Shown piece after piece: positions 28,011 to 57,000 of a DNA stretch of 64,000 bases (the stretch's first letter is position 1; the number at the start of each line of letters is the position of its first letter). The stretch comes from Liolophura sinensis. Taxonomy: Eukaryota > Mollusca > Polyplacophora > Chitonida > Chitonidae. Both the position numbers and the translations under genes were made by a program. The notes under the pieces were generated by a model that had not been told where the DNA came from, made no database searches, and saw only the letters and a program-made list of their open reading frames with translations. The stretch covers positions 13,687,717-13,751,716 of the forward strand of contig NC_088305.1 of the NCBI RefSeq assembly GCF_032854445.1, given 5' to 3'.

Positions 28011-31000
28011 ATGAGTGGCCTGACGGAGCAGCAAAAACTAAGGATAGAGGAGAACAAAAAGAAGGCATTGGCCAGACTAGCAGAGAGACGTGGCAACATG
28101 GGGATGCAAGCAACTTCAGCAGTACAAGTTCAACGCCACCTACAGGGTCAGGACAGGGGGAAGGGAGACAACTGTGGAGGTTCCAGACAGATGAGTGCTG
28201 GGTCTGGATTGTGGTTGAATAAGGCCAGTGTTGGTAAAGACTGTTCTCAGTCGAGGGTTGACACAACACCTCTGGCTCAGGCTGGCTCCAATATGACATC
28301 CAAATTGTCATCATGCACAAAAACTTCAGAAAAGAATCAGGGCCTGGGGAATGGTTCTGAGAAAACGGTACCTGAGAAGACATCAGGATCAAGTGTGTCT
28401 TTATCGTGTGCAGGGACGAGCGGAAATGTTGTAAGACCTGCTCCAGCTGTTGCAAAGTCTGCCACTTTTTACGGGACTGTCTCGAAGACGGGACAAAATG
28501 CACAAAATCGATCAAGTTTGACGGCGACAGTGCCAAAGCCTGGTAACTTTGGTGTAACAAAGAGTTATGCTTCAACAGGAGCGAGTCATGTGAACAGTCG
28601 ACACAGTGCCATGAACACTCTGGCTTATGTGACAGGAAAACCAAACCTGTTCAATTCTATCAAGGGCAAATGTGTTCTTTGTTCACGTGAACATTTTAAG
28701 GTCGAGGTTGGATTTCACACAGCCATGGTGGAAGTGTTTAAGACTATGAAAACAAGGCAGTATGGTGAGTGGTAAATTGCATTAATGTGCAAGAAAACAT
28801 TAAACTATAATGCATCAATGGAAAGACAAATAAAAACTATGTTCACTTGTCTTAGTTCTTTTAATATTTATTTGCCAGAGTAAGATAGTGTGCTGAACTT
28901 TATGGAGCACTGTATTTGTGACGTCAACAGTTTCTTTTTTCATCCCACACAATGCATTTAGCATTTAACATCCCACACAATGCATTGAATGTTGGAAAAT
29001 TGAAAAACAATAAAAGAAAAATAAATGCAGTAAAATCAAAATGAATGCCGAGATTTTTGTGGGCATCAACTGGGTAGACAGCAGTTTAGATAGTTGCGCA
29101 GTTTTCGCCCTTAAAAACTCATATGACTGTATAGAAAAATCTACAGTTTTCTCAATATTTTGAAATCATAAATATTACAGATGTGGCAACCAGGCTGTGG
29201 TCCTTTAAGCTAGAAGAACATGATGCACTAAGTAAGTATTGCCTCAGCGCAAAGTTTTCCTTCAAACTCTGACTTAAGGAACCTCTGTTATGGCATGTAC
29301 TTATATCTCAGTGATCAGAACATCAAGGTGAACAAGAGAAAGATTTATATGCATCTATCATGGGTGTAAGCCTAAATGTATAAAGCCTGTATGAAGCATT
29401 AAGTACTTTTAAGTCTACAAAGCCCTTGATTGCCATTTTGCACCCATACTTCTAAACTGAGATGGCTGGAGTGAATCCACCGTGTACTGTAATTTGAGAT
29501 TTGGAGCACAGTTCAGAGTCATGGCTTACTTGCACTTGTATCTGTCAGAATTTAATGTTGAATGATATGTAATGCGACTACCTGCTTTGTACATGTATGT
29601 CTGACTGCAATACATGTTCAGTATACTAGAGCTTAATTTTTCTGAATGATGTGGCTAACCTTCAGTGTACATGTACACATATATCTGTTTAGTATACTGT
29701 GTATGTACATGTTTGTCTGTATAGTATACTGTGTATGTACATGTGTGTGTGTACAGTATACTGTGTATGTACATGCATGTCTGTACAGTATACTGTGTAT
29801 GTACATGCAAATAAACAAACATTATTGCTTAATGATCTGATGTGGTTGCTCTCTCTGTAGTGCATGTACAGTATGGAAACAAGCAGTATGGCTTTATGAG
29901 CTGATGCGTCTGCTCTCTCTATATGTCTGGTGACAGTGCATGTATAGTATGGAAACAAGCAGTATGGCTTTATGAGCTGATGTGTCTGCTGTCTCTCTAT
30001 GTCTGGTGACAGTGCATGTACAGTATGGAAACAAGCAGTATGGCTTCATGATCTTATGTGGCTGCTCTCTCTGTATGTCTGATGACAGTACATGTACAGT
30101 ATGGAGACAAGCAGTATGGCTTTATGAGCTGATGTGGCTGCTCTCTCTCTATGTCTGGTGACAGTGCATGTACAGTATGGAAACAAGCAGTATGGCTTCA
30201 TGATCTGATGTGGCTGCTCTCTCTCTATGTCTGATGACAGTACATGTACAGTATGGAGACAAGCAGTATGGCTTTATGAGCTGATGCGTCTGCTCTCTCT
30301 ATATGTCTGGTGACAGTACATGTATAGTATGGAAACAAGCAGTATGGCTTTATGAGCTGATGTGGCTGCTCTCTCTATATGTCTGGTGACAGTGCATGTA
30401 CAGTATGGAAACAAGCAGTATGGCTTCATGATCTGATGTGGCTGCTCTCTCTCTATGTCTGGTGACAGTACATGTACAGTATGGAGACAAGCAGTATGGC
30501 TTTATGAGCTGATGTGGCTGCTCTCTCTATATGTCTGGTGACAGTACATGTACAGTATGGAAACAAGCAGTATGGCTTCATGATCTGATGTGGCTGCTCT
30601 CTCTCTATGTCTGATGACAGTACATGTACAGTATGGAGACAAGCAGTATGGCTTTATGAGCTGATGTGGCTGCTCTCTCTCTATGTCTGATGACAGTGCA
30701 TGTACAGTATGGAAACAAGCAGTATGGCTTTATGAGCTGATGTGTCTGCTCTCTCTCTATGTCTGATGACAGTGCATGTACAGTATGGAAACAAGCAGTA
30801 TGGCTTTATGAGCTGATGTGGCTGCTCTCTCTATATGTCTGGTGACAGTACATGTACAGTATGGAAACAAGCAGTATGGCTTCATGATCTGATGTGGCTG
30901 CTCTCTCTCTATGTCTGATGACAGTACATGTACAGTATGGAGACAAGCAGTATGGCTTTATGAGCTGATGTGGCTGCTCTCTCTCTATGTCTGATGACAG

Positions 31001-34000
31001 TGCATGTACAGTATGGAAACAAGCAGTATGGCTTTATGAGCTGATGTGGCTGCTCTCTCTCTATGTCTGATGACAGTGCATGTACAGTATGGAAACAAGC
31101 AGTATGGCTTCATGATCTGATGTGGCTGCTCTCTCTCTATGTCTGATGACAGTACATGTACAGTATGGAGACAAGCAGTATGGCTTTATGAGCTGATGTG
31201 GCTGCTCTCTCTCTATGTCTGATGACAGTGCATGTACAGTATGGAAACAAGCAGTATGGCTTTATGAGCTGATGTGTCTGCTCTCTCTCTATGTCTGGTG
31301 ACAGTACATGTACAGTATGGAAACAAGCAGTATGGCTTTATGAGCTGATGTGGCTGCTCTCTCTCTATGTCTGGTGACAGTACATGTACAGTATGGAAAC
31401 AAGCAGTATGGCTTCATGATCTGATGTGGCTGCTCTCTCTCTATGTCTGATGACAGTACATGTACAGTATGGAGACAAGCAGTATGGCTTTATGAGCTGA
31501 TGTGGCTGCTCTCTCTCTATGTCTGATGACAGTGCATGTACAGTATGGAAACAAGCAGTATGGCTTTATGATCGGATGTGTCTGCTCTCTCTCTATGTCT
31601 GGTGACAGTGCATGTACAGTATGGAAACAAGCAGTATGGCTTCATGATCTGATGTGGCTGCTCTCTCTCTATGTCTGATGACAGTACATGTACAGTATGG
31701 AGACAAGCAGTATGGCTTTATGAGCTGATGTGGCTGCTCTCTCTCTATGTCTGATGACAGTGCATGTACAGTATGGAAACAAGCAGTATGGCTTTATGAG
31801 CTGATGTGTCTGCTCTCTCTCTATGTCTGGTGACAGTGCATGTATAGTATGGAAACAAGCAGTATGGCTTTATGAGCTGATGTGGCTGCTCTCTCTCTAT
31901 GTCTGATGACAGTGCATGTACAGTATGGAAACAAGCAGTATGGCTTTATGATCTGATGTGGCTGCTCTCTCTATATGTCTGATGACAGTGCATGTACAGT
32001 ATGGAAACAAGCAGTATGGCTTTATGAGCTGCCTCTGTGTGTTTACAGTGCAGCAGTTACGAGGACTGCGCCCAGATGTGCACATCGAGCCCCTACCTAC
32101 TGCCGTGAGAACGATATTCAAGGCACAGTTTGCTGGAAAGTATCCATCAAATCAAATCCCAGAGGCTGACCTTGCTGTGGTGGATCCAGTGTTACAACAC
32201 TCGCTCATGCCTTTCCAGAGGACAGGTGTTAGGTACATGTAAAATTCAGTGTGACAAAGCTGGGGATAGCTGTGGCTGGCTGGGGTATCTGTCATAGTTG
32301 AAATGTCCTGTTTGAATTTGGCTTTTGCTGTCTCCACTGTGCTTTTTTAATGAGGAACTGCAAACCTTTGAATTTTCCAAAAAATTTCTTCCAGAAGGCT
32401 TCCTAAAGACAAAGAAAACACTAGTTTAAAGTATTTAGCAGATAAAAGAGCATTTAACACTGCCCAGAAAAATAGTTTGGTTTATTTTTTTTTTAAGAAT
32501 TTTTCCAACCAACTAAAATACATTTAAAACACAGGATTCTATGGTGGTCTGTTGGGACCAGCAGGGTATCAGTGACGTCACAGCAATATTGTTGGCTTGG
32601 AATAGTTTGTTTCAAGGTCCATTTGTTAAATGCATTCATAGCTTTAAATGAATATGCATTTTGAATGTTTGAATATAACAGTCTGTGTGTGTGAAGTGGT
32701 AGAAAGCTGAAGTGACATTACTGGTCCCAATATGGCCAGAAATGGCCACAGTAGGATCCAAAGTTTCAAATGCATTTTACTAGGTCGAAATATATTCTGA
32801 AAAAATAAATCAAACTATTTTCCGGGGCAATATTTAATGGCCTTTCATCTGACATGGGCGTCATGCTAATGTGTTCTTTGCCTTGAAGTTATTGTTCTAA
32901 GATTATGTCCGTTTTCTTTATGAAAATAATTGAATAAGTTATTTTGATATAAATCTTTACAATTGACCAGCATAACGCTGTATCTAAAATGGCCGTTGCT
33001 TGGTTTCCTTTATTTCCCTAAAATTGGCAATGTCACTGGTGATTCCTGTTATTTATATTTTTAAAAAATGTAGCAGTTTTTGTGATGTTGTGTATGGCCA
33101 GAAGAACGAACCACGTTCACTTTGATGTCACGACATTCCAAAATCAAAGAGGAACAAGCCATGGTGTTTTGAGTAAATGTCTGGATTGCTGCTGGTTATT
33201 TCTGGCCAAGCATAAGCTACAGGTTGCACATATGTGTGCAAAATACTAGAAAAATGTAACAGAGGCATCACCATGTGTTTACTCAGATGACTTTCAGTTT
33301 TAGGTTAATAGTCTTTGTAATTCACCTTTAAGTACTGAAACATGTAAAGACGCATGCTATAAATAGACGCACATATTTTAGAGGATTGACAACCCAGGGG
33401 TATTCCATGATCTTTGCTAAGATTAAAAAAAAAAACAACAACACCTTACCATTGGTAAACACGATATTCTGGGTTTGTCTTATTATCATACAGGGGCCTC
33501 CGTGGCTCAGTTGATTAGCGCCCCAGCGCAGGGTAATGATGGTTGCTATGAGTTCAAGTCCAACTCATGCTGGCTTCCTTTCCGGCCGTACGTGGGAAGG
33601 TCTTTCAGAAACCTGCGGATGGTCGTGGGTTTCCCCCGGGCTCTGCCCAGTTTCCACCCACCATAATGCTGGCCGTCGTCGTATAAGTGAAATATTCTTG
33701 AGTACGGCGTAAAACACCAATCAAATAAATAAAAAAATAAATATTATCAGACATTCTAAGCACAAATGAAGGATATCACATAGACACAGAAAGAGAAAAA
33801 CAGATGAAAAAAAATCACATAGATACTGAATGAAGACGGAAATCAATGTTGAGAATAGGTGGCCATTGGATCAATGTTGAACACAGTTCAATAAACCTTG
33901 TACGAACTACCACAAAATTTGTTAGAATGCATGATAAAGAATATATAAAAAAATTGTTGTCTAAAAATTTGTTTCAGTAAGTCTCTTCAATATAAAGACG

Positions 34001-37000
34001 TTGGTATGAAAACATCTATAACATACATGTAAACTACCTGTACATGTTTGCCATCTATAATTAATCTTGCAGTGTTATGACTCCAATAGTACCAAAGAGG
34101 AGTTCAAACAATGGTCGTTCATTCATTCAAAAGTGAATCTGAAGACTCATACAAATAGAGAGTGAAAGAAGCCCTAAAAGCTGTCGATGCATCAGTAAAT
34201 TTCGTTTTGTATTTTACTGGCAAGAATCTGTTTTGTGTTATTAACCCATACTATTTTCCTGTCACTACAGTTTTGGTGTATGGAAGAAGGGCCGTGTGTT
34301 GATAGCAGATGACATGGGCTTAGGGAAAACAATACAGGCTATCTGTCTGGCCTCTTACTACAGACACGAGTGGCCACTCTTAGTGGTTGTCCCCTCATCT
34401 GTTAGATTTGACTGGGCTGAGGTATGTGCTTGGTCAGTTTCAGAATGTTAAATTGAAAAATGGAGAATTCTATATGAGCTATTGGAACATATTGCTAACA
34501 AAAGTTAATTTGTATTTTAGCAAGCTGCTTGTATTTTAACTTCTATGTGTATGAATTGTTGTAAGAGATTTAAGATAAGCTTCTGGTCCCAGGATCATAG
34601 TGCCATCTTAGACTTACGTCCAAATCTCAGTTATTGAACTGGTTATGTTCCTTTTCGTTATTTTAGCTGAAATTTGTTTTACTTACTCAGAATTTACAGA
34701 CAAGACATATTTTTACCTGATTATGTAAGAAATGACAATTTTAAAGATATTTGAGATTTTGATGCAAGTCTTAAGAACATTTTGTGATCCCAGATCTTTT
34801 TCAGTTTTTGCCATAGCTACTTATTTAGTATACCGACCCTGATTTTTGTGCTGTTCTGTTTTGTTTTTTGTTTTTTTTGGCCACACTGAAGAATATTTCA
34901 TTGAATTGATGAAACTTGACAGAGAGACAAGAAGAAACCATTGCAACTTACCAGATACCTAAACAAAACTGCTGACTGATAAAAATTATTTACCTGTTGT
35001 CGAACGCCTTTTTTGTTTTTTCTTCACAGCAACTGAGACGCTGGGTTCCAAGCCTCGATCCACAGTCCATTGTTGTGATAACAACTACAAAGGATGTGTT
35101 TTCCTCAGCACGTGTAGTTGTCATCAGTTATGATTTAATGGCTCGCAAAGCACAGGAACTCAAACAGAAGCACTTTGAGGTCATCATTATGGTAAAGACA
35201 AAGGCTTCTTATTAAATTTGGCGTGGGAAAGTCTGCCAGTAACCTGTGGACGGTCGTGAGTTTCCCCCGGGGCTCTGCCCCGCTTTCCACCCACCATAAT
35301 GCTGGCCGGCGTCCTATAATTGAAATATTCTTGAATATGGCGTAAAACACCAATCAAAAAAATAACAAAATAAATAAATACTAAATTTGGGATTCTTGAG
35401 TACGGCAAAAAACTATAGTCAAATAAATAAATACTTAATTTGGATTTCTTATTAAGTTTGAGCTAATCACCCTAGTGTAGAACTTATGGTAAAAACATAA
35501 CCTTCCAGTATAAAAAGTTTAATTTCTGCTCTGTGGTCTGCCAGTTAATATAATAATAATACAGTGTAATAGTGTATAACCTAGAAACTTGAATTGTTCT
35601 GTTTTTCAAGGATGAATCACATTTGCTGAAAAACATCAAGACAGCCAGAACTAAGGCAGCTATGCCCTTACTGCAGGTGGGTGTATCAGATGTGTAAGGA
35701 TTTTGTGTTCAGGTGCAGGTCTTTTAATCGTTCTGACAAACCAGATGTTGCCTGGATCAAGATTGTTTTTGCTTGTAGACAGAAGACTTAAACCCATTTA
35801 TTTTAAACCAGTGGCACCTGTGTCCGAGGTGGTTAGCGTGCCAGCAAGCCATAATGACCTAAGAGCCGCTCCCCAGTAAGGTGGTTGTAAGTTTAAGCCC
35901 ACCTCATGCTGACTTGAGAAGGTCTTCCAGCAACCTGCAGATGGCTGTGGGTTTTCCAGGAGTTTGCACGGTTTCCTCCCACCATAATGCTGGTTGCCAT
36001 CATATGAGTGAAATATTCTTGAGTACGGCCTAAAACACCAAATACATGAATTTGACTGAACCCCTGGACGTTTAATATTTATCTACATATCATGTAATTA
36101 CTTACCTGGAATATGGGACATTTTGTTTGATTGATTTATATATTTGATTGTTGTGTTAGGCCGTACTCAAGAACATTTTACTTATGTGACAGCAGCCAGC
36201 ATTATGGTAGGCGGAAACTGGGCACAGCCCGGGAGTAGCCCACGATCATCCGCAGGCTGCTGGGAGACCTTCCCATGTACGGTCGGAGAGGAAGCCAGCA
36301 TGAGCTGGACTTGAACTCACATCAACCACATTGGTGAGAGGCTTCTTGGTCATTACGCTGTGCTAGCGTGCTAACCACCTGAGCCACGGAGGCCCCATAG
36401 GACATTTTGTGAAGGTGTCCTAGGACCATGATCGGTTCCAAGAAGCATACTTAGTGTTAAGGCGCTCTTAGCTATAAAAGTGCACTTCACAACTCTACAA
36501 CATTTACAGTCATGGTAGTGAAGGGTTTACTTGAATAGCTATGTGAACTTTATGAGGTCTCAGGACACATGTACCGGGCTGCATCTTTTAGGCTGGGAAT
36601 CATACAAGGATTATTGTAGAGGAAAAGCCTTTCATGACCTCTTTGAGGGATTTGTTATTTACATGACCTGTATTTCTTACATATGTGACAAATATTTGTT
36701 ATTTATGTGATAATATATTTGTTATTTATGTGACAATATATTTGTTATTAATGGGACAAATACTTGTTATTTATGTGACAATATATTTCTTATTAATGTG
36801 ACAATAAATTTGTTATTTATGGAATTAATGTGACGATATATTTGTTATTTATGTGACACTGTATTTCTTATTAATGTGACAAGTATTTGTTATTTATGTG
36901 ACAATTTATTTGCTATTTATGTGACAATGCTTTTGCTATTAAAGTGACTGTATTTGCTCTTTATGTGACAATGTATTTGCTGTTTATGTGACAATGTATT

Positions 37001-40000
37001 TGCTATTTAATGACAATGCATTTGCTATTTATGTGACAAGGTACTTACAATTTATGTGACAATGTATTTGCTATTTATGTGACAATGCATATGTTATTTA
37101 TGTGACAATGTATTTGTTACCTTATGAGCAGGCTGCCCGTAGAGTGATCCTGCTGACAGGCACCCCCGCCCTCTCCCGCCCCAGCGAGCTCTACACCCAG
37201 ATTGTGGCCGTCTGTCCAGGCTTGATGAAGTTCCATGAGTTCGGTGTCCGCTACTGCGATGGCAAGGAGGTGAGGTGTGATTGACACATACACGTACAAG
37301 TAATGATCTAAAGTGGCGTTCTTTTGAACCAAAAAATGAATATTTTTTATGCATATTGATTAACCATGACATAGGAATAAACACCGTGTTGTGGTTGCAG
37401 GTACGTTTAAAGTACATTTTTATGCGTTAATGTTTTGAAAATAGAAGACAAGGTTCTCTCCTATCATAGAAGACTGACAGACACAGTTAATGTGTTGTTT
37501 TTGTGTTGTGGCTACCATGGGGTTGGGATTTCTCTGGCTGTTCTAACATGGGATAGTTACAGTTAGTGCAGCAGCCAGGTGACTGAGTGTTGGTGGTGCT
37601 GTAGTTACCCTGGGGTTGGGATTTCTCTGGCTGTTCTAACATGGGATAGTTACAGTTAGTGTATCAGCCAGGTGACTGAGTGTTGTTTGTGTTGTAGTTA
37701 CCCTGGGGTTGGGATTTCTCTGGCTGTTCCAACATGGAAGAGTTACAGTTAGTGTATCAGCAAGGTGACTGAGTGTTGTTTGTGTTGTAGCTACCCTGGG
37801 GTTGGGATTTCTCTGGCTGTTCCAACATGGGAGAGTTACAGTTAGTGTATCAGCCAGGTGACTGAGTGTTGTTTGTGTTGTAGTTACCCTTGGGTTGGGA
37901 TTTCTCTGGCTGTTCTAACATGGAAGAGTTACAGTTAGTGTATCAGCCAGGTGACAGAGTGTTGTTTGTGTTGTAGTTACCCTGGGGTTGGGATTTCTCT
38001 GGCTGTTCCAACATGGAAGAGTTACAGTTAGTGTATCAGCAAGGTGACTGAGTGTTGTTTGTGTTGTAGCTACCCTGGGGTTGGGATTTCTCTGGCTGTT
38101 CCAACATGGGAGAGTTACAGTTAGTGTATCAGCCAGGTGACTGAGTGTTGTTTGTGTTGTAGTTACCCTGGGGTTGGGATTTCTCTGGCTGTTCTAACAT
38201 GGAAGAGTTACAGTTAGTGTATCAGCCAGGTGACAGAGTGTTGTTTGTGTTGTAGTTACCCTGGGGTTGGGATTTCTCTGGCTGTTCCAACATGGAAGAG
38301 TTACAGTTAGTGTATCAGCCAGGTGACAGAGTGTTGTTTGTGTTGTAGTTACCCTGGGGTTGGGATTTCTCTGGCTGTTCTAACATGGGAGAGTTACAGT
38401 TAGTGTATCAGCCAGGTGACTGAGTGTTGTTTGTGTTGTAGCTACCCTGGGGTTGGGATTTCTCTGGCTGTTCTAACATGGAAGAATTACAGTTAGTGTA
38501 TCAGCCAGGTGACTGGGTGTTGGTTGTGCTGTAGTTACCCTTGGGTTGGGATTTCTCTTGCTGTTCTAGCATGGGAGAGTTACAGTTAGTGCATCAGCCA
38601 GGTGACTGAGTGTTGGTGGTGTTGTAGTTACCCTGGGGTTGGGATTTCTCTTGCTGTTCTAGCATGGGAGAGTTACAGTTAGTGTATCAGCCAGGTGACT
38701 GAATGTTGTTTGTGTTGTAGTTACCCTGGGGTTGGGATTTCTCTGGCTGTTCCAACATGGGAGAGTTACAGTTGTTGCTGGAGGAGAAATTGATGATCAG
38801 GTATGGTACCTTGTACTCTATTTGTATATGACAAGTTAAGTTTATATCAAATTAACAGGTCCCTTCAGAGTTTTGATAGTGAAGGACTTCCACTCATAAA
38901 TCTGACCCTCGTTGTACAAATGAAATATTCATCAGGACGAAGTTAAACCTCATTTATTTCCCCCCAAAAATAAATCAAATAAATATGAAATATTTCCATT
39001 TGAATGGTTCAAGATTTTCAGAATTTTAGTACAAAATATAAAAATAATTTGAGACCCAATAGACATGCATAAACCTAAATCTATTACAGTTGACATGTAG
39101 GTTACTCAGACATATGTAGGTAAATGTGAAAAAATTATTTAGGTCTTTAACTGCATGTTTGTCTGATGTAAAGCTGTGAATGAATGAATGAATCCTTGGG
39201 GTTTAATGTCCTATTTAATGATTTATGAGTCATTAACTGTAAATAAACAGACTGCATGTTAGAGCGGTGTTACCGGTGTCTTCAGAACCTTGTGAAACCA
39301 AGGAAGAAATCTTGTCTGCAAACTCTCAGGCAAGAGCTGAAACATCACTCCTTCTTCCATTTATTTCCAGACGATTGAAGAAAGAAGTCCTGTCTCAGCT
39401 GCCTTCAAAGCTGCGCAAAATGGTCCTGTTGGATCCCTCTTCTATCAAAATATCGAAGGAAATGAAAAGAACGTCAACCACAGAGAACTTTGAGAAGCTA
39501 AAGGTAACGCTCTACCTGTGTGTGGTTTAGGTAGATTGGTTTATGATGACTCAAGGATGGCTACGTGATTCTGGAAGGGTTCATTTATTTATTTTATTTA
39601 TTTGAGTCGTGTTTCTCGTCATACTCAAGACTTTTTCACTTGCATTGGAAACATTGCAGACTGAATTTTATGTTGATATGTTAACTTGTTCGATTATTTC
39701 CATTATGATGATATCTTTTTCAGGGAATGAAGGGAAGAAAAATGCTGCTGGAATATTTCCATGATACAGCTCAGGCTAAAGTGGACGCTGTCAGGTATGG
39801 AAGGAGGGCACCTGCAGGAGTTACTGTAAAAGACCTACTGGTTGACTCGTATCAGTATAATGGCTGCGGCGGGTTGGCTTACTTGCCTTTGGTAAAAGCA
39901 TCTCATTGAAGCAGCACTAGATAAAAGAGCGGTGGAAATCCGACCTGCAACAAGGAGACACATTACATGCAATCTAAGGATTCCTTCATCATCATATGAC

Positions 40001-43000
40001 TGAAAATTGTTAAATACGACTTTAAACCCCAAGCACTCACTCACTCACTCACTCACTCACTCACCAACAACTGGAATGGGGTAAGAATGCTTTTCCTGCA
40101 TACAGCTAAATGGGCAGGCTAAAGACACATTCCTTTATCATGATGTTGTACATGAAGTTCTGTATTTCATGATGTATTTATTACCTTTTAATCTATTTAT
40201 GGAAATGTTAGGGGACAGAAGAGGGGGTGTTTCAGACATCCTGATTCTAGCCATGTATAATGTTAAAATCAAATAATTATGAAATGAATTGTTCCTGATT
40301 TTTTCAGAGGTTATGTTTTGGATTTGTTGGAGAGTGGTCAGAAATTTCTGTTGTTTGGTCATCATCAGGAGTTATTGGATGCCTTAGAAACTGCCCTTGA
40401 CAACAAGGTATTCCAGATATTGCTACGTATGTGTGGAAATATGGTTCTGCTCATTGCTTTATTCCTTGAATTTCCAATCATTGGTAATGGGAGTTTCAAA
40501 AATGTCTGCCTTGAGCATCTATCAGTATTTCTCTTTCAAGTCTGTTTGAAATTACTGCCCAGTACTAATGATATATCCTACGCATATCTTCCGCCCATCA
40601 AAGGTGCATTCTGATCGGATGTGGTGCAGATCCTATGTAGATCATACAGATATTGGTCGGCCCATGCCGAAATAGCGGGAACAGCCAAAGCGCAATCTCT
40701 ATCTTGCGTACACCATGTGTGGGCCTATTGGATGTTGCCACTTGAAAATAACAGGGTTATCCTGAGAGTACAAAGAGAGTGACTACTGAGAGTTTAGACT
40801 ACTTTTCACAAGTGGATCCTGTTATACAAATCCCTATGCGAATGATGGTTGGATCCCACGCCCATTATGAGGAGCCTGTCTTGGCCGTTTTATTGGCATA
40901 TGATGTCACCATCTACCTCATTTATTATAACCATGCTGCACGGATATTCCGGCTAACATCCATGCAAGATATATCATTAGGATCGGGCAGTACAGCATCT
41001 ACCTCACAAAAATATTTATTTATTCATTTGATCGGTGTTTTACGTCGTACTCAAGAATATTTCGCTTATACGACGGCAGCTAGCATTATGGTGGGTGGAA
41101 ACTGGGCAGAGCCCGGGGGAAACCCATGACCATCTGCAGGTTGCTGGAAGACCTTCCCATGTACGTCTCACGAAAATATGATAACTGTGTTATTGCATTC
41201 TCAAAATGATAAGAACAGAAACTCTGTTATTCTGTCACCACAATATGGCTGGAAAATAGCCAGTGTGGCGTTTAACCGTAATCATTCTGTTATTCTTCTT
41301 AATCCTTGTTTCCGCTAATGTCAGAAGATTCTGTGAATAGGTAGAAAAGATTCTGTTTTAGAAATATGTCACCATCAATGAAAGCACTGAATGTTTTTAT
41401 TGAAGTTGTCGTTGTCACAAGTAGTTATGGAAAATAGGTTTTTAGTGAATGGCAGGAAGAAACTCATGTCCTTTTATGTCCACATATTCACAGATATTTC
41501 ACATGATGAAACAAATTTAGAAGCATGAAACGTAAAAATGCATGCCATGCATTGAGGCAAGGTCACCAGACTTCTGGGTCAGTGTACATACGTCTTAGGG
41601 GCCACTTTCCAGAAACTTCGTAAATCAATTTTTCATAACTTTTCTCGTAAATGAAGTCGACTCATGGCGCTAAAGCTTACAGAGTTGTTTCTTTTGTTGT
41701 TGCTACAGGAAAGTGGCTGTTTTATCAGGATCGATGGTCGTACACCTTCAGAGCAGAGGAAGTCTCAATGTGACAGATTTCAGACCAATGACAGCGTGCG
41801 CGTGGCATTGCTGTCAATCACAGCCGCCAACGCAGGCCTCAACCTGACGTCCGCCTCTCTAGTCGTGTTTGCTGAACTGTTCTGGAACCCTGGGGTAAGC
41901 CGTATGTCACATGACTGCTTTTGTATCAGATTTTGCACTGATTACAGAAATCTGGTTTAGAACTATATGTACATGTTGTTGACAGTTTGTTATTTTTTGA
42001 TTGGTGATTTACACCGTACTCAAGAATATTTCACTTATACAATGGCAGCCAGCATTATGGCGGAAGGAAACCGGGCAGAGCCCGGGGGAAACCCACAACC
42101 ATCTGCAGGTTGCTGGAAGACCTCCCCACTTACGGCCGGAGAGGAAGCCAGCATGAGCTGGATATTGACAGTTTGAAATGAGAGTTTAATCTTTGACCAT
42201 TATGAGCTGTTGCCGATTTCCAACACAACACAGGCGAGTACAATGCCGATTTCCAACACAACACTTATGAATACAATGCCGATTTCCAACACAACATGAA
42301 CGAGTACAATGCCGATTTCTAACACTTCACAATGACCTATTTATTATATACCTGAACCTGTCCGAGGATTTATTTATTTATTTATTTCATTGGTGTTTTA
42401 CGCCATACTCAAGAATATTTTACTTAAACGACGACGGCCAGCATTATGGTGGGAGGAAACTGGGCAGAGTCCTGTGGAAACCCACGACCATCCGCAAATT
42501 GCTGCCAGACCTTCCCACGTATGGTCTAGGACTTAAAGCTGGTGCAAAAAAAAACCAATCAAATATACACGAACAGATTTATTTAAATAAATAAATATTT
42601 TCTATCCTAATGGAACAGATTTGAATACATTTATATGTAACAGACATGACATTAGAGTATCACAGACAGTGATTCATTAATTTTTTTTTTACCACATGCA
42701 GATTCTTGTTCAAGCAGAAGATCGTGTCCACCGTATTGGTCAGAAAGACTCTGTCAACGTTCATTACCTAGTCGCACCTGGAACAGCTGATGACCATATA
42801 TGGTAAGGATTCGTGTAACGTGTGGGAAGGTGTGTTAAACTGGCTGTGGACAGCATGTGTATGGTAAGAAGTCAGGAAACAAGTATTCATGTTCCAGTTA
42901 GTTCAGAACTGAGTGTGACAGTGTATGACAATTATATCTGTATCATGTATTGTGTATAAAAATCAAACATGGACCACAATTCAAACTGGCACGCCTGTCT

Positions 43001-46000
43001 ACGGAAGCTCGAAAGCGTGACACTTAAACATGTTATAGGGCTGGTCGGTTTCCTGCACTCATAAATCTGACAGCTGTTATGTACAAAAATTACAAAAATT
43101 CTTGGGAAAGGCATTTAGTGCCGGTAAGTCAATCAATCAATCAATCAAATATGTTACAGATGTATTAAAAGCGTCACAGTTTAATGTACATCAACATGAG
43201 GCATACCTAACCACCAAATCCTGGGAGCCTCTCTTCAATGTGGTCGTTGTGAGTTCAAATCCAGCTTATGCTGGTTTCATCTTCAGTCTTATGTGTTAAT
43301 GTCTGCGCCCACCATAATGCTTGTCGCATGTGGTATAAGGGAAATATTCTTGAGTATGGCATAAAACACCAATCAGGTCAAATGAATAAACTCATCACCA
43401 AATCCCCCCCCCTTCACCCCGCCCCAGTGGTATAGTCTCATAGCCCCAAAAGTTTAAGTGCCTTATACATGAATTTAATTAACAATGAGAAAATGAAGTG
43501 TTTTCCCGAAACAATATTTTAGAAGTATATTTAATGATCTCAAATTTTGCCCTTGATTATGGTGCAGAAGTTTGTCTGAATTTTCTGAGAGCTCTGTTGA
43601 TTCTTAGAAAGGTGTTTTGAGATTCGTTTAAAAGTTAGGATGATACTCTGCTGGAAAAAGAGAAATTCAGCACCAAAATTAAGATTTTATTGCACGTGTA
43701 GATAATAACAAAGTGGAGAAATTTATTTTTAAATTATGCACTGTGAAGTTTTGGCTGTTTTCAGGCCGCTTGTACAGAACAAGCTGAGTGTACTGAGTAA
43801 GGTGGGTTTGTCCAAGGAAGACTTCTCTGAGGCTGACACATGTCATCAACAGGTACGAATTGAAATGATTTCAATAGGAACAAAGGGGGACTCTGTGACC
43901 CAGGTGGGTAGCAAACCAGCGTGGCACAATGACCCGGGAGCCTCTCACTAATGTGGTCGCTGTGTGTTCAAGACCAGTTCATGCTGGCTCCCTCTCCTTC
44001 TGTACGTGGGAAGGTCTTACAGCAACCTGCGGGTGGTTGTGGATTTTCCCCGGGCTGCGCCCAGTTTCCTCCCACCATAATGCTGACCACTATCTTATAA
44101 GTGAAATATTCTTGAGTACGGCGTAAAACACCAATCAAATAAATAATAAATCAAAAGGAACAAATTAAAAACTCCAGAAAAGTAAGGTAGAACAAAGTGA
44201 GCTTTTCAAACTGAACATAGAATTCATGACACTGGTAAAATTACTCAAACTGTACTGTAACTACTTCAGTCATATAAATTGAGACAGTTTGGGGGGCATT
44301 TACATGTATTCACTTTGTGATATATGTAGATATGTGTATTATACATACATGTTTTTTTTGGCTGCAACCCTTTTTTTTAGATTTTCTATCTTGTTTTCAC
44401 CCAGGTAAACTTAGGCCAAAACATGTTGGACTTGGCTCAGAGATCCCAGCTTTCCCATATTTCCTGTGATTTCCTATATTTTATGTAGGATCCTCGAAAT
44501 GTCCAATATTTTCCAAAATATCCCTTTTTTGTCCTTTATTCTCCATTGTCTATTACCTTGTGTAAATTGGTTTCTTTGTTGTTCATTCCACATTATAACT
44601 TTTGCTGCTTTTTTCCATTGCCTATCACAACATGTCTGTTATAACATTTGCTGCTTATTCTCCATTGCCTATCACAACATCTGTTATAACATTTGCTGCT
44701 TATTCTCCATTGTCTATCACAACATGTCTGTTATAACATGTGCTGCTTATTCTCCATTGCCTATCACAACATCTGTTATAACATTTGCTGCTTATTCTCC
44801 ATTGTCTATCACAACATCTGTTATAACATTTGCTGCTTATTCTCCATTGTCTATCACAACATGTGTGTTATAACATGTGCTGCTTATTCTCCATTGTCTA
44901 TCACATGTCTGTTATAACATTTGCTGCTTATTCTCCATTGTCTATCACAACATGTCTGTTATAACATTTGCTGCTTATTCTCCATTGTCTATCACAACAT
45001 CTGTTATAACATTTGCTGCTTATTCTCCATTGTCTATCACAACATGTCTGTTATAACATTTGCTGCTTATTCTCCATTGTCTATCACAACATGTCTGTTA
45101 TAACATGTGCTGCTTATTCTCCATTGTCTATCACAATATGCCTGTTATAACATTTGCTACTTATTCTCCATTGCCTATCACAACATCTGTTATAACATTT
45201 GCTGCTTATTCTCCATTGTCTATCACAACATGTCTGTTATAACATGTGCTGCTTATTCTCCATTGTCTATCACAACATCTGTTATAACATTTGCTGCTTA
45301 TTCTCCATTGTCTATCACAACATCTGTTATAACATTTGCTGCTTATTCTCCATTGTCTATCACAACATGTCTGTTATAACATTTGCTGCTTATTCTCCAT
45401 TGCCTGTCACAACATCTGTTATAACATTTGCTGCTTATTCTCCATTGTCTATCACAACATCTGTTATAACATTTGCTGCTTATTCTCCATTGTCTATCAC
45501 AACATGTCTGTTATAACATTTGCTGCTTATTCTCCATTGTCTATCACAACATGTCTGTTATAACATGTGCTGCTTATTCTCCATTGTCTATCACAACATG
45601 TCTGTTATAACATGTGCTGCTTATTCTCCATTGTCTATCACAACATCTGTTATAACATTTGCTGCTTATTCTCCATTGTCTATCACAACATGTCTGTTAT
45701 AACATTTGCTGCTTATTCTCCATTGTCTATCACAACATGTCTGTTATAACATTTGCTGCTTATTCTCCATTGTCTATCACAACATGTCTATTTTATCTTT
45801 TGCTGCTTATTCTCCATTGTCTTTCCCAACATGTCTGTTATAACATTTGCTGCTTATTCTCCATTGTCTATCACAACATGTCTGTTATGACATTTGCTGC
45901 TTATTCTCCATTGTCTATCACAACATGTCTATTATAACATTTGCTGCTTATTCTCCATAGTCTATCACGTGTCTATTATAACTTCTGCTGCTTATTCTCC

Positions 46001-47616
46001 ATTGTCTATCACAACATGTCTATTTTAACGTTTGCTGCTTATTGTCCATTTGTCTATCACATCAACTCTATGTCAGTATCCTTTATTGACATTAATTAAC
46101 TTATTTCACTGTGTCCCAGAGGTGCAAATGACACCTCTTTCCATTAGAAATGTCTCAAGTTTAGAAATGTTCAGCTCCTCAGTTTTCTCCATTGTTCCTC
46201 CACCTGAATAACGTTTTTTGTGACTTTTGTTAGAAGTCCATGTTATAGGAGATGTAAACATGAATAATTGCCGAACGTTTTGGCAAGTCACATGATACAG
46301 TAAGACTTTTTTACCTTCAGCGATAAAAGAGTTTGAAACTACCCTATTGCTTTCTTTCATTACCCCATATCTATTCCATTTTTTGTTCTTTATTCTCCAC
46401 CGTCTATCATTCCATGTACATTGCGTTCTTTGTTGTACTCCTTTTGTCTATCAACCATGTTAATTGAACTATTTTAATTTCCTGGCAGAATTCTAAACAG
46501 GAAGATTTGAGGAAGTTTTTTGAGGAATCTTTCTTTGAAGACTCCAGCGCCACAGATGAACAAGGGGAGATAACTGGAGATGTTGTGTGTTCAAGTCCTA
46601 AAAAAGAGTCAAGTCCAGCCGACAAGTATCCAAAAAGTCAGTGAAGCTTACTGAGTGAATACATGATCATGACATCAACTAAAAAAGTAAAAAAAGAGAT
46701 ATGCAAATTATTACCATCCTTAGCCTTTCACCACTGAGGTTCCTGTCCATCTCATGCTGGCTGTCCTTGGAAGGTCCCTCAGCAACCTGCAAATGGTTAT
46801 TGGTTTCCTATAGGCTCTGCCCTGTTTCTTCCCACCTTAATGCTGGCCGTCATCATATAAGTGAAATATTCTTGAATAAATGAATAAATATTACCTTCTT
46901 TATGGTGCCAGGTTTTGCACACAGGTGGAGCACAATGACACGGGGATATTCAAGTATTGATTTGCTGTGTGTATATTACTTACCGTAAATTACCAAATTC
47001 ATGACTTAGTATGTATTGTATATAAGCATCAGTGTTAAAGCAAATGTCATGGTTAGTATCTCAAATAGCACTGCAGGTATTGACCATGCATATAAAGCAC
47101 AGTGACACAAGGGGATTGTTCCAACGCTGATGCCGTATGTGCATATTAATTACCATTAATTACCAAATTCACAAAGTCAGGACTTTGAGCTGAAGTTTGC
47201 ATTCGTGCGCCTCCCATAGGTGAGGGGCCGGTTTCAGGAAGCTCGCTGAGCTAAGTTTGCCCTTAACTACCATGCCATATATCGTAGAGATGTAAAGTGC
47301 ACTTAGCTAAGGGCTACTTAGCACTAAGTATGCTTCATGAATCCAGCCCCTGGTCTTTGACAGCCTTGTTACCAAATCTAAGTTAAACATGTACATGTAT
47401 TTCCTTGTTTTCTTATTAGAGAGCCCGACCAAACAGTCAAAGATCGGTCAGTTTTTCAAGCGGCAAACAGGTGTTGCCATTGGCAACCAGAGTGACATTA
47501 AGTTTGACCAACCAGATGCGTCAGATGAGATTGAGGATGATTGTGATTGGCTGGATGATATCGTTGAGTGGGAAGAATCTAATGGACAACCACAGGCCAA
47601 GAAATTAAAACTGTGA
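28011..47616 (+). CDS. SMARCAL1: SMARCAL1/HARP annealing helicase, complete, 16 coding exons, 869 aa
   Basis: SMARCAL1 is an SNF2-family, ATP-driven annealing helicase that binds RPA and remodels stalled replication forks in the nucleus. Exons: 28011-28764, 29181-29231, 32049-32232, 34271-34421, 35030-35191, 35611-35676, 37132-37269, 38721-38800, 39371-39503, 39724-39794, 40308-40407, 41709-41894, 42702-42802, 43765-43852, 46489-46636, 47420-47616. They sum to 2610 nt with consistent phases. Seen: RPA-binding motif at residues 4-28 ([18 protein letters not shown]); Ser/Thr-rich linker; one HARP domain about 213-268 ([18 protein letters not shown], then [11 protein letters not shown]); motif I DDMGLGKT with K349; DESH at 435-438; LLTGTP at 463-468; [14 protein letters not shown]; motif [13 protein letters not shown] at 696-706; C-terminal PIP-box QSKIGQFF at 810-817. 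The first exon has an acceptor at 27990, so a 5'UTR exon lies upstream. ATG 28011 is chosen because it opens the RPA motif. Human SMARCAL1 has two HARP domains. The exon 15 donor (gtcagt) is weak. Confidence 0.96.
29668..29815. repeat. ~32-bp minisatellite
   Basis: About five units of TATACTGTGTATGTACATGT plus GTCTGTACAG in SMARCAL1 intron 2, just before the 76-bp array. TACAGTATACTG is itself palindromic. Frames on both strands are artefacts. Confidence 0.85.
29845..32035. repeat. 76-bp minisatellite, 29 copies, abutting SMARCAL1 exon 3
   Basis: The AAGCAGTATGG word occurs at 29881 and last at 32009, exactly 28 x 76 bp apart; intermediate copies that I checked keep the 76-bp step. Each unit has a pyrimidine tract and AG (CTCTCTCTCTATGTCTG then ATGACAG). 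Sub-types (GAGACAAG versus GAAACAAG; CTGGTG versus CTGATG) alternate, suggesting higher-order units. The array ends about 20 bp before the real acceptor at 32048. Confidence 0.95.
33494..33743 (+). mobile_element. SINE-A copy, full length, well preserved
   Basis: GGGGCCTCCGTGGCTCAGTT head (box A), GAGTTCAAGTCCAACTC box B, an intact body and GAGTACGGCGTAAAACACC with an AATAAATAAA tail. A short internal head deletion follows GGTAATGATGG. SMARCAL1 intron 3. Confidence 0.93.
35219..35432 (+). mobile_element. SINE-A copy, 5' truncated, with duplicated tail
   Basis: Starts GGCGTGGGAAAGTCTGCC only ~28 bp after the SMARCAL1 exon 5 donor (exon ends 35191) and runs to an AATAAATAAATA tail near 35380. 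A second partial tail (TTCTTGAGTACGGCAAAAAA) follows. Confidence 0.85.
35814..36045 (+). mobile_element. SINE-A copy, diverged full length
   Basis: GGCACCTGTGTCCGAGGTGG head through AATGCTGGTTGCCATCATAT and the GAGTACGGCCTAAAACACC tail. SMARCAL1 intron 6. Confidence 0.87.
36127..36397 (-). mobile_element. SINE-A copy, inverted, full length
   Basis: Tail complement at the left, GAGCCACGGAGGCCCC head complement at the right. Inverted relative to the copy ending at 36045, with an ~80-bp spacer, so the pair could form a long RNA hairpin in intron 6. Confidence 0.9.
36431..36540 (-). mobile_element. fragment of the GGGGCYGG foldback MITE
   Basis: GAAGCATACTTAGTGTTAAG and TAAAAGTGCACTTCACAACT match, in reverse, the complete 129-bp element at 47223-47351. 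The ends have decayed. Confidence 0.5.
36650..37120. repeat. ~22-bp AT-rich minisatellite abutting SMARCAL1 exon 7
   Basis: About 20 units of TTATGTGACAATGTATTTGCT with small indels. The array runs to within ~15 bp of the acceptor of exon 37132-37269 (TTATGAGCAG), so the exon's polypyrimidine/branch region consists of repeat sequence. Confidence 0.92.
37490..38774 (+). repeat. 93-bp minisatellite made from the SMARCAL1 exon 8 splice acceptor, 14 copies
   Basis: The word GGTTGGGATTTCTCT starts at 37521 and then every 93 bp through 38730, 14 positions with no net indel. Each unit carries intron end TTTGTGTTGTAG, then TTACCCTGGGGTTGGGATTT and on to about 53 nt of exon 8, then ~40 bp beginning AGTGTATCAGCCAGGTGACT. 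Copy 14 continues into the genuine exon (38721-38800). Other copies lack the exon's true 3' end and donor. Copy 1 has GTGG instead of the GTAG acceptor. Confidence 0.97.
39178..39245 (-). mobile_element. SINE-B/C tail fragment, inverted
   Basis: TGAATGAATGAATCCTTGGG and GTTTAATGTCCTATTTAATG, the complement of the shared SINE-B/C 3' tail. Confidence 0.6.
39584..39646 (-). mobile_element. SINE-A tail fragment, inverted
   Basis: TTATTTATTTGAGTCGTGTT and CATACTCAAGACTTTTTCAC. Only the 3' ~60 bp of a SINE-A copy remain. Confidence 0.65.
39815..40066 (+). mobile_element. SINE-B copy, 5' truncated
   Basis: Body (GGTTGACTCGTATCAGTATA, AGCAGCACTAGATAAAAGAG) and tail (ACGACTTTAAACCCCAAGCA) ending in (CACT)n. 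It begins ~20 bp after the donor of SMARCAL1 exon 39724-39794. Confidence 0.85.
41013..41165 (-). mobile_element. SINE-A copy, inverted, 5' truncated
   Basis: ATTTATTTATTCATTTGATC tail complement through TGGGCAGAGCCCGGGGGAAA to ACCTTCCCATGTACG. The head is missing. SMARCAL1 intron 11. Confidence 0.88.
41598..41690 (+). mobile_element. half copy of the GGGGCCAC foldback MITE
   Basis: GGGGCCACTTTCCAGAAACT and TTCTCGTAAATGAAGTCG match the left arm of the element at 2226-2384. The right arm is absent. It stops ~20 bp before the acceptor of SMARCAL1 exon 12 (starts 41709). Confidence 0.6.
41997..42165 (-). mobile_element. SINE-A copy, inverted, 5' truncated
   Basis: TTGATTGGTGATTTACACCG to AGCCAGCATGAGCTGGA. 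The head is missing after box B. SMARCAL1 intron 12. Confidence 0.88.
42205..42335. repeat. ~42-bp tandem repeat, 3-4 copies
   Basis: Units containing TGCCGATTTCCAACACAACA and GAGTACAA; the last is decayed. SMARCAL1 intron 12. Confidence 0.85.
42370..42530 (-). mobile_element. SINE-A copy, inverted, 5' truncated
   Basis: ATTTATTTATTTATTTCATT tail complement through the body to ACCTTCCCACGTATGGTCT. It is the second SINE-A in this intron. Confidence 0.87.
43220..43395 (+). mobile_element. SINE-A copy, internally deleted
   Basis: GGGAGCCTCTCTTCAATGTG, GAGTTCAAATCCAGC, then a jump to CCCACCATAATGCTTGTCGC and GAGTATGGCATAAAACACC. SMARCAL1 intron 13. Confidence 0.82.
43889..44154 (+). mobile_element. 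SINE-A copy, full length
   Basis: ACTCTGTGACCCAGGTGGGT head, GTGTTCAAGACCAG box B, the complete body and GAGTACGGCGTAAAACACC tail. It begins ~36 bp after the SMARCAL1 exon 14 donor (exon ends 43852). Confidence 0.9.
44585..46060. repeat. 45/47-bp minisatellite, ~32 copies
   Basis: Units of TCTATCACAACATGTCTGTT plus ATAACATTTGCTGCTTATTC plus TCCATTG (47 bp), or a 45-bp form lacking one GT. Overlapping 60-135-aa frames ([18 protein letters not shown]) appear in every plus frame and end where the unit phase shifts, so they are not genes. SMARCAL1 intron 14. Confidence 0.95.
46090..46350 (+). mobile_element. MITE, GACACCTCTTTCC family, copy 1
   Basis: ATGACACCTCTTTCCATTAG, the TTTTTTGTGACTTTTGTTAG region, ATAATTGCCGAACGTTTTGG and ATAAAAGAGTTTGAAACTAC are shared with 53.6-54.0 kb; the first parts also with 63.5-63.8 kb. 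SMARCAL1 intron 14, 140 bp before exon 15. Confidence 0.7.
46740..46890 (+). mobile_element. SINE-A copy, 5' truncated
   Basis: TCTCATGCTGGCTGTCCTTG through GCAACCTGCAAATGGTTATT to AAGTGAAATATTCTTGAATA, with an AATGAATAAATA tail. Last SMARCAL1 intron. Confidence 0.83.
46915..47185. repeat. diverged ~170-bp tandem duplication
   Basis: Two blocks (about 46918-47005 and 47093-47175) share GCACAATGACACGGGGAT-like, GCATATTAATTACC-like and TTACCAAATTCA segments in the same order. Last SMARCAL1 intron. Confidence 0.6.
47223..47351. mobile_element. foldback MITE, GGGGCYGG family, complete
   Basis: Starts AGGGGCCGGTTTCAGGAAGC and ends with the complement of AGGGGCTGGATTCATGAAGC. The arms pair over about 50 bp, and total length is ~129 bp. 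It lies ~70 bp upstream of the last SMARCAL1 exon. Confidence 0.72.
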
Positions 47617-54000: not shown

Positions 54001-57000
54001 ATTGATTGGTTGGAGAGCATGTTGTGGGTTGTAACAGCACAATGCAGAAGTTTCAATTCTGTTTGGTCACATCGATGTTGCTTGTCCACCTTGTGTCGTA
54101 AACGCAGTCCAAATACAAATACAATCATTCTGTCATATTTACCTGTAGTCATAAAAGTTCACATACCCCAGAACTGCCTCGCCTTTAAATTTACCTGTGG
54201 TGACAGAAGTCTGCATAGCCTAGCACTGTTTACCTGTAGTCACAGAAGTCTGCATATTCCAGCACTGCTTCCCCTTTATGTTTACCCGTAGTCACACAAG
54301 TCGGCCTACTTCAACACTGCCTCCACTTCATGCTTACCTGTAGTCATAGAAGTCGGCATACTCCAGCACTGCTTCCCCTTTATGTTTACCCGTAGTCACA
54401 CAAGTCGGCCTACTTCAGCACTGCCTCCACTTCATGCTTACCTGTAGTCATAGAAGTCGGCATACTCCACCAATGCCTCCCTTTTATGTTTACCCGTAGT
54501 CACAGAAGTCGGCCTACTTCAGCACTGCCTCCACTTCATGCTTACCTGTAGTCATAGAAGTCAGCATACTCCAGCACTGCCTCTCCTTCATGTAGCATCT
54601 TACAGTGTCCCTTGTCCACCATGTGCCTCTGTACAGCCTGTGTAGACTGGAACCTGCGACCTTTCTCATTACACCACAGGCAAACGTTACCCTCCCCAAC
54701 CTTCTGACCTGGAGCACAAGAAAAGAGGTATATTTGTCTTGTTTATGATTAGACGATACCAGAGGGAGGCTTAGAAAGGCCTGAGGAAACCAGATGGACG
54801 CATGAGGAAACCAGTAGTAGGCTTAAGGAAACTACTGGGAGGCCTGTGGAAACCACTGCGAGTCCTGAGGAAACAGGAGGTAAGCCTGAGGAAATCAGAG
54901 GGATGCCTTACTGGTAGAAGACACAACTGGGAGGCCAGAGGAAACCAGATGGAGACCTGAGGAATCCAGATGGCGGCACGAAGAAACCAGATGAAACCAG
55001 AGGTAGGCCTGAGAAACCAGAGGGAGGCTACAGGGAGGCCTGAAGAGAACAGAGGAAGGGTGAAGGAAACCAAAGCTGGACAGACCTCTTAACTGTACCA
55101 GCTCTTACGTGTATCAATTCAGAAGAAATTGAACTGAATGATTTTAACATTTCATTACGGTGTGTATTTTTTGTTTCTGCAAATCCGACAAAGTGCTAAG
55201 ATATTTATGGTGCTGTCAAACGATAGCGCCAAGCCAAAGACAGCAGAACCTACAACCTCTTCAGAATTTCGTCAAACTTGTGCCGTATTCATCATTTTGT
55301 TTCGTAACTTTCTAACAACAACGTCATGGCTTACGATTTACCTGTTGTTTCCATTGGTCAATCTGGATCATGTTAAACCAGCCATCTGTATTGGAGCTGT
55401 GAGCTCTTTCAACAGTATTTGGAACAGCTATGAGCCTGTGTATGAGGAGAGTTCAGCAAAACCTCACTTACCTAGATATGAAATGAGCCCCTCCAGGTCA
55501 GAGATGTACTCGGCATCGGGGAGGAAGAAGCCGTGCTTGACGGTCATGTGTCTCAGGTTGTCCTCCATGGATTGGCTGACCTGTGAACAGAACAGACACT
55601 CTTCCACGCCCAGGCCTTCCCCGTCAAAACTCTCCCAGGATTCTGCATCAGAATCGTCCTCAACCATGTCTGAAACACACAAAGACAGGGATAAGAAAAC
55701 ACAAACAAAGCTGAATGATTCTCTGTCTCCGTCTTTTTGACGATTAACGTTGTACACGTACTTCTGAGTTTTTCACTGTTAATACAACTGTAGTCAGTCT
55801 TATATGTGTGGGTGGAGTACACAGCCCAGAGTTCACCACACACCATCACTGGCTGACTTTCCCACAAGTGAAATACATCATACTGGTAGGAGGCAAATGG
55901 CCTACGGTTGAATTCATGCTAACTTGTCACCACAGAGCACTTCTTCTTCCGACCAAGAATGTTGGCATGTATGCTTCAGTTTCACATCGTACTTAACCAG
56001 AGTCATTAGGTGAGTAAACACCTGCGTCTTCTTGTGCTAACCTCTCACTGCTCAGAGTCAAGAAAGACAGCAACAACTACCATTATTAAAGTCCTGACAA
56101 AGGCATGATCATGGAAGCACAGGGATGATAGGAAGCATAGGGGTGATAGGAAGCATGGGGATGATAGGAAGCATGGGATCATTTGAAGCATGGGGATGAT
56201 TGGAAGCAGGGGGATGATAGGAAGCATGGGGGGTGATAGGAAGCATGGGGGGTGATAGGAAGCATGGGGGATGATAGGAAGCATGGGGTGGATAGGAAGC
56301 ATGGGGATCAATTGAAGCACAGGGATGATAGGAAGCATGGGGATGATAGGAAGCATGGGGATGATAGGAAGCATGGGGGGTGATAGGAAGCATGGGGGGT
56401 GATAGGAAGCATGGGGGATGATAGGAAGCATGGGGATGATAGGAAGCATGGGGATGATAGGAAGCAGGGGGATGATAGGAAGCATGGGGGGTGATAGGAA
56501 GCATGGGGGGGTGATAGGAAGCATGGGGGGGTGATAGGAAGCATGGGGGATGATAGGAAGCATGGGGATGATAGGAAGCATGAGGAGGATAGGAAGCATG
56601 GGGAGGATAGGAAGCATGGGGATCAATTGAAGCACAGGGATGATAGGAAGCATGGGGATGATAGGATGCATGGGGATGATAGGAAGCATGGGATCATTGG
56701 AAGCATGGGGACTATTGGAAGTATGGGGATGATAGGAAGCATGGGGATGATAGGAAGCACAGGGATGATAGGAAGCAAGGGGATGATAGGAAGCACAGGG
56801 ATGATAGGAAGCATGGGGATGATAGAAAGCATGGGGATGATAGGAAGCATGGGATCATTGGAAACATGGGGATCATTGGAAGCATGAGGATCATTGGAAG
56901 CACAGGGATCATTGGAAGCATGAGGATCATTGGAAGCATGGGGATCATTGGAAGCATGGGGATCATTGGAAGCATAGAATCTTGAAAATACCTCCAAGAA

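Follow-up and report, generated by a model that had tools for sequence, protein, structure and literature searches.

SMARCAL1 and ZNF622 in the window

The window analyzed here, a 64,000-nucleotide stretch of the Liolophura sinensis genome (C11:13687717-13751716), contains the DNA-repair gene SMARCAL1 on the forward strand and, as its neighbor on the reverse strand, the gene for the ribosome-assembly factor ZNF622. We built an exon model of SMARCAL1 by reading frame and splice signals. The model and the parts of the gene that matter below are as follows (a slash marks the exon-intron junction).

28011 to 47616, forward strand: coding region of SMARCAL1, with 16 coding exons and a product of 869 aa that equals the annotated protein P0001.
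37132 to 37269, forward strand: SMARCAL1 exon 7, the upstream splice partner, with donor GAG/GTGAGG.
38721 to 38800, forward strand: the real SMARCAL1 exon 8, which is copy 14 of a tandem array, with donor CAG/GTATGG.
38774 to 38800, forward strand: the 3' part of exon 8 beyond the repeat homology, which includes GGAGGAGAAA and the exonic part of the real donor.

When copy 14 alone is used, the model matches the NCBI-annotated SMARCAL1 protein P0001 letter for letter over all 869 aa. The annotated product therefore uses copy 14, in agreement with the first of the two original suggestions, that the last copy is preferred by the spliceosome. A comparison of homologues finds the exon 8 stretch in many related proteins, several of them molluscan. 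In the last 27 nt of exon 8, GGAGGAGAAA resembles a purine-rich splicing enhancer, and we take it to be a candidate for one. A second locus in the genome, C6:16999965-17004804, gives SMARCAL1 matches at 42-55% protein identity; it is perhaps the ZRANB3-like relative.

A 93-bp array repeats the boundary of SMARCAL1 intron 7 and exon 8

Intron 7 of SMARCAL1 contains a tandem array that extends into exon 8.

37486 to 38773, forward strand: 93-bp array of 14 copies, each joining the end of the intron to the initial 53 nt of SMARCAL1 exon 8.
37512 to 37578, forward strand: copy 1, a degenerate edge copy in which GTGG replaces the acceptor TAG and which has an in-frame TAG inside.
37605 to 38694, forward strand: decoy acceptors of copies 2 to 13, each followed by a 67-nt pseudo-exon that runs to a CAG/GTGAC(T/A) or AAG/GTGACT donor.

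These outer limits follow our unit frame; TRF places the array at 37496-38773, with a period of 93, 13.8 copies, 94% matches, 0% indels, and a score of 2241. The anchor GGTTGGGATTTCTCT occurs 14 times between 37521 and 38730, and all 13 spacings are exactly 93, confirming the originally described 14 copies at a 93-bp period without net indels. The 93 nt of a unit comprise 26 nt of intron end, a 53-nt stretch similar to the beginning of exon 8, and a junction of 14 nt. Across the 53 nt of exon homology, exon 8 and the consensus of copies 2 to 13 are identical at 52 positions, and the homology stops 27 nt short of the exon 8 donor. The original description of each copy as an intron end plus about 53 nt of exon 8, with the real exon as the last copy, is borne out.

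The splice signals are well kept among the decoys. The acceptor TAG is present in copies 2 to 13, i.e., in 12 of the 13 decoys, in line with the original description of a GTGG in copy 1 followed by a dozen decoy acceptors; the first exon-like base recurs every 93 bp from 37605 to 38628. The GT of the decoy donor is kept in all 13. A CCAG/GTGACT donor had been ascribed to each copy, which holds for the eight decoys with CAG/GTGACT but not for the two with AAG/GTGACT (copies 3 and 6) or the three with CAG/GTGACA (copies 5, 8, and 9).

A DNA search of the species' own genome (609,464,459 bp, 632 contigs) with the array sequence returned six matches, all within the array; the search tool skips common words, so these matches do not prove the array sequence to be unique. 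A degenerate copy 0 to the left of copy 1 (37456-37480) was rejected as weak, its score being reached by 21 of 1,000 shuffles and, on a slightly longer stretch, by 76 of 1,000.

Splice-site strength and the choice of copy 14

Matrices trained on splice sites of both genes in the window (18 donors, 17 acceptors) score the real exon 8 acceptor at 5.22 and the acceptors of copies 2 to 13 at 1.19-3.93. The real donor, CAG/GTATGG, scores 10.05 and the decoy donors 5.05-7.37, which overlaps the range of the real donors when these are left out one by one (2.9-11.3). By these scores, the decoys would be plausible splice sites. Four AGs that lie off the register of the repeat outscore the real acceptor (8.8 at 37401, 6.4 at 38570 and at 38663, and 5.4 at 37473), indicating that acceptor strength alone does not explain site choice. 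Exon definition, rather than the acceptor alone, would pick exon 8 by virtue of its stronger donor and the 27 nt beyond the repeat homology, and we infer that copy 14 is chosen in this way. RNA structure hiding the decoys was discarded as an explanation: 38628-38820 folds no better than shuffled sequences do (z = -0.53; 50 of 200 at least as good). With 12 near-identical decoy acceptors against one real site, and the downstream exon body and donor as the main differences, the array is a natural test of splice choice.

Products of decoy use

When any of the 12 intact upstream acceptors is used and read through, translation would end at a stop 14-30 codons beyond exon 7. TGA, the stop originally named, accounts for 7 of the 12, and the other five stop at TAG; in four of these five, that TAG doubles as the acceptor of the following copy. 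Inclusion of a single pseudo-exon from any of copies 3 to 13 leads to the same stop in exon 9, and the pseudo-exon of copy 2 has a stop inside copy 2 itself. Among the 4,095 non-empty combinations of the 67-nt pseudo-exons of copies 2 to 13, none keeps the frame open. Given these sites, every enumerated mis-spliced product meets a stop, so the decoys add no protein variety and can only be silent or feed decay. The structure, the gene, the exon, its phase, and the frame-breaking nature of the 67-nt pseudo-exon had been read correctly.

These properties are compatible with a regulated poison-exon array, in which decoys and pseudo-exons lower SMARCAL1 via nonsense-mediated decay at a dose set by copy number. 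Such a role would fit the retention of TAG and GT among the decoys, the premature stop in every enumerated product, and decoy donor scores within the range of real donors. However, the conservation of the signals is what recent homogenization alone would yield. A search with the hypothetical read-through product gave P0001 as the best match and no second near-identical protein among the best 120 of 437 matches, and the P0001 cluster has one member. Further, comparable arrays in amphioxus are reported to leave splicing undisturbed (PMC3902484). The suggestion that SMARCAL1 output is tuned by pseudo-exon inclusion and nonsense-mediated decay gained no support; no protein with decoy residues was present among those best 120 of 437 matches. 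Regulation of SMARCAL1 by the decoys along this route is possible, and we judge a regulated poison-exon array to be unlikely.

Divergence among the copies

The copies are not equally divergent. Copies 3 to 11 differ from one another at 0-4 of 76 columns, and the most divergent are the edge copies 1, 2, 12, and 13, so that the array has a homogenized interior and divergent edges, with copy 14 as the exception. Part of the interior stems from a block duplication.

37672 to 38229, forward strand: copies 3-5 and 6-8, a recent three-unit block duplication with 2 differences in 279 bp.

The real exon is nearest to copies 3, 4, and 7 (2 differences in 76 columns) and not to its neighbors 12 and 13, a relationship that simple nearest-neighbor growth does not explain. 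In the column partition of the comparison script, the variable columns among copies 2 to 13 number 5 of 26 in the intron-like part, 8 of 49 in the exon-like part, and 2 of 18 in the junction. Changes in the decoys include W>L, G>C, N>S, and G>E and one nonsense change. The similar variability of exon-like and intron-like parts, together with changes of this kind, gives no sign of coding constraint in the decoys. To judge from the alignment, the pattern resembles the turnover usual in minisatellites, the functional copy staying at the array edge.

A mirrored donor array in ZNF622

The neighboring gene carries a second array of this kind.

54138 to 54593, reverse strand: ZNF622 donor array of exon end plus donor, with 52-bp spacing and one step of 39 bp; the real copy comes first and eight decoys follow.
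54546 to 54708, reverse strand: the real ZNF622 exon heading the array, with donor CAG/GTAAGC; TAA stands as the first complete codon after the junction.

The exon (54708-54546) ends in ...ADFYDYR, followed by GTAAGC and then the eight copies of exon end plus donor. GTAA is kept in all eight in-register decoy donors, of which five read CAG/GTAA and three CGG/GTAAAC; two are identical to the real donor. Read-through past the real donor meets TAA immediately, as the first whole codon. The annotated ZNF622-like isoform X2, one of three members of its cluster, uses the first donor. In these two neighboring genes, the real copy closes an acceptor array (SMARCAL1) and opens a donor array (ZNF622).

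Relation to known boundary repeats and proposed origin

Repeats termed "mirage" minisatellites are known from the amphioxus genes for Adh3, the globins BflGb6 and BflGb9, troponin C, and PGBD5, where splicing is reported as undisturbed and the regular boundary is used (PMC3902484). As in the chiton, these are tandem repeats over an intron-exon boundary, at acceptors or donors, with many units keeping AG or GT. The annotated chiton proteins would fit use of the regular boundary, and BflGb6 is likewise reported to have a homogenized interior from which the edges are excluded. The differences are that one host is a cephalochordate and the other a mollusc, and that two BflGb6 haplotypes contain 6 and 3 units, each 150-160 bp long, whereas the SMARCAL1 array has 14 copies with an exact 93-bp period. 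The units of both chiton arrays span a boundary, at an acceptor in SMARCAL1 and at a donor in ZNF622; many units keep the signals (AG in 12 of 13 SMARCAL1 decoys, GTAA in 8 ZNF622 decoys); and the annotated SMARCAL1 and ZNF622 isoform X2 proteins would fit use of the authentic boundary at the array end. On these sequence features, both arrays would best be filed as mirage minisatellites.

We consider it probable (roughly 0.83) that the SMARCAL1 array is a mirage minisatellite in which a boundary segment was duplicated and then homogenized, and that the two arrays, in a genome rich in minisatellites, are most likely passengers of nearly neutral selective effect. A segment over the boundary of intron 7 and exon 8 would have been tandemly duplicated; the motif ACAGTT is common to the left (intron) flank and exon 8, which would fit a possible microhomology join at the birth of the array. 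Expansion and homogenization would then have proceeded by unequal exchange or slippage. The extra copies all lie on the intron side, with the terminal copy alone retaining the complete exon, so that SMARCAL1 still works. Mis-spliced RNAs, which meet stops, would be degraded, and the array would thereby be tolerated. The ZNF622 array would reflect the same process, mirrored at the donor. Rather than acting as a switch, the SMARCAL1 array is most likely a by-product that this repeat-rich genome tolerates.

Two other systems are related. Human internal tandem repeats at exon-intron boundaries, in genes in segmental duplications, also have units of minisatellite size and could alter splicing; they differ from one recent paralogue to another and are able to give rise to new introns (PMC2812944). 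By contrast, the DNA search with the SMARCAL1 array found no second locus, and the annotated protein shows no new intron. Nor is the array common to near-identical paralogues: all six DNA matches, with common words skipped, lie in the array, and the paralogous C6 matches have 42-55% protein identity. In the Rogers model, as cited in PMC3087553, introns are gained via tandem duplication of AGGT segments. Each decoy unit has CAG/GT or AAG/GT and 12 of 13 have an acceptor, the raw material of such a gain, but the extra chiton copies lie within an existing intron, and the annotated protein equals a model in which a single intron separates exons 7 and 8. The array is possible raw material of intron gain, caught early.

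A limited search of the open-licence PMC literature found no mirage case in a mollusc among the hits listed; the chiton arrays may, tentatively, be the first outside cephalochordates. They would extend mirage-type minisatellites beyond amphioxus, with acceptor and donor arrays in adjacent genes.

Chance seeding and other arrays

Minisatellites are frequent in this region: 264 kb contain 63 arrays, after merging, with a period of at least 20. SMARCAL1 and ZNF622 hold ten arrays of period 18 or more (the ZNF622 part covering 10 splice sites of six modelled exons). Random placement of the founding unit gives 0.73 splice-spanning arrays expected among these ten, compared with two observed; the chance of at least two is 0.16, and the arrays therefore call for no special origin. 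This expectation, and several similar amphioxus genes (PMC3902484), lend no support to the earlier view that a conserved exon is an unusual seed for a minisatellite. The calculation also supplies a simple null for the frequency of minisatellites at exon edges.

Two further arrays end near SMARCAL1 acceptors. A 76-bp array (29859-32031, 28.6 copies) ends 18 bp before the exon 3 acceptor, and its unit has a pyrimidine-rich stretch and ACAGTGCA, the latter present at that acceptor too (score reached by 1 of 500 simple shuffles); given this resemblance, it may be a third boundary-derived array. A 23-bp array (36650-37119) ends 13 bp before the acceptor of exon 7; the final, degenerate unit seems to continue towards that acceptor, with a score that 1 of 500 simple shuffles reaches. 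By a post hoc count, 4 of the 10 arrays span a splice site or end within 18 bp of one, which may hint at non-random placement.

We also surveyed two Pfam families across the genome. Neither the 57 Cpn60_TCP1 matches nor the 84 Myosin_head matches (65 of 213 candidates scored) showed short-period repetition of an exon stretch, at a low power illustrated by the exact SMARCAL1 protein, which showed just 3 of 13 decoys as separate matches. Two myosin-head matches at C1:26642195-26643386, which lie about 1.1 kb from each other, align to one stretch of the model (118-152 and 121-152) and could be alternative exons.

Splice boundaries might instead be preferred birth places of minisatellites in this genome, e.g., via transcription- or RNA-linked breaks. 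The two splice-spanning arrays among ten and the 76-bp and 23-bp arrays ending 18 and 13 bp before acceptors would suit such a preference. It is weakened by the chance probability of 0.16, by the choice of the window for this very feature, and by the 141 matches in the two Pfam families, which at low power show one myosin stretch twice but no short-period repetition. We regard preferred birth as about as improbable as the poison-exon array. Less credible still is the broader proposition that many chiton genes keep splice-boundary minisatellites, and that the number of decoys sets splicing accuracy in a heritable way, a higher number giving more poison-exon or read-through RNA and less SMARCAL1 or ZNF622. 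If it were true, copy-number differences would bring dosage differences of a replication-repair helicase and a ribosome-assembly factor, with the coding sequence unchanged.

Soundness of the assembly

Expansion of one or few copies by the assembler is very improbable. Tandem arrays are prone to assembly error, and the coverage of the published assembly is just 14x (609,495,693 bp in 632 scaffolds), but its HiFi reads average 8,347 bp (PMC11068029), exceeding the 1.3-kb array. The copies are mutually distinct, their variants form a structured pattern, and the mean read is several times the array length, which together make an artifact unlikely; the ZNF622 array is, moreover, a second of its kind in the same window. 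The species of the published chiton assembly has been corrected from Liolophura japonica to L. sinensis (PMC12441733).

Finally, the idea that the copies are Dscam-like cassette exons in tandem, any of which would serve as an alternative exon and diversify the protein, has virtually nothing left to commend it: copies 2 to 13 do offer an acceptor and a possible donor, but 67 nt is not a multiple of 3, the exon homology ends 27 nt before the exon 8 donor, and the enumeration of 4,095 subsets, given these donors and acceptors, rules it out for protein diversity.

Other intronic arrays are also present in the window. A 47-bp array (44593-46061, 31.8 copies) lies in a SMARCAL1 intron, away from exon edges, and an 18-bp array (56113-56975, 47.4 copies) in a ZNF622 intron. 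In a crude codon-usage scan of 127 open reading frames crossing array edges in the 200 kb upstream, two exceed the SMARCAL1 exon mean of 0.275, at 0.356 and 0.313, and the frame scoring 0.356 resembles a repeat-derived open reading frame of the window.
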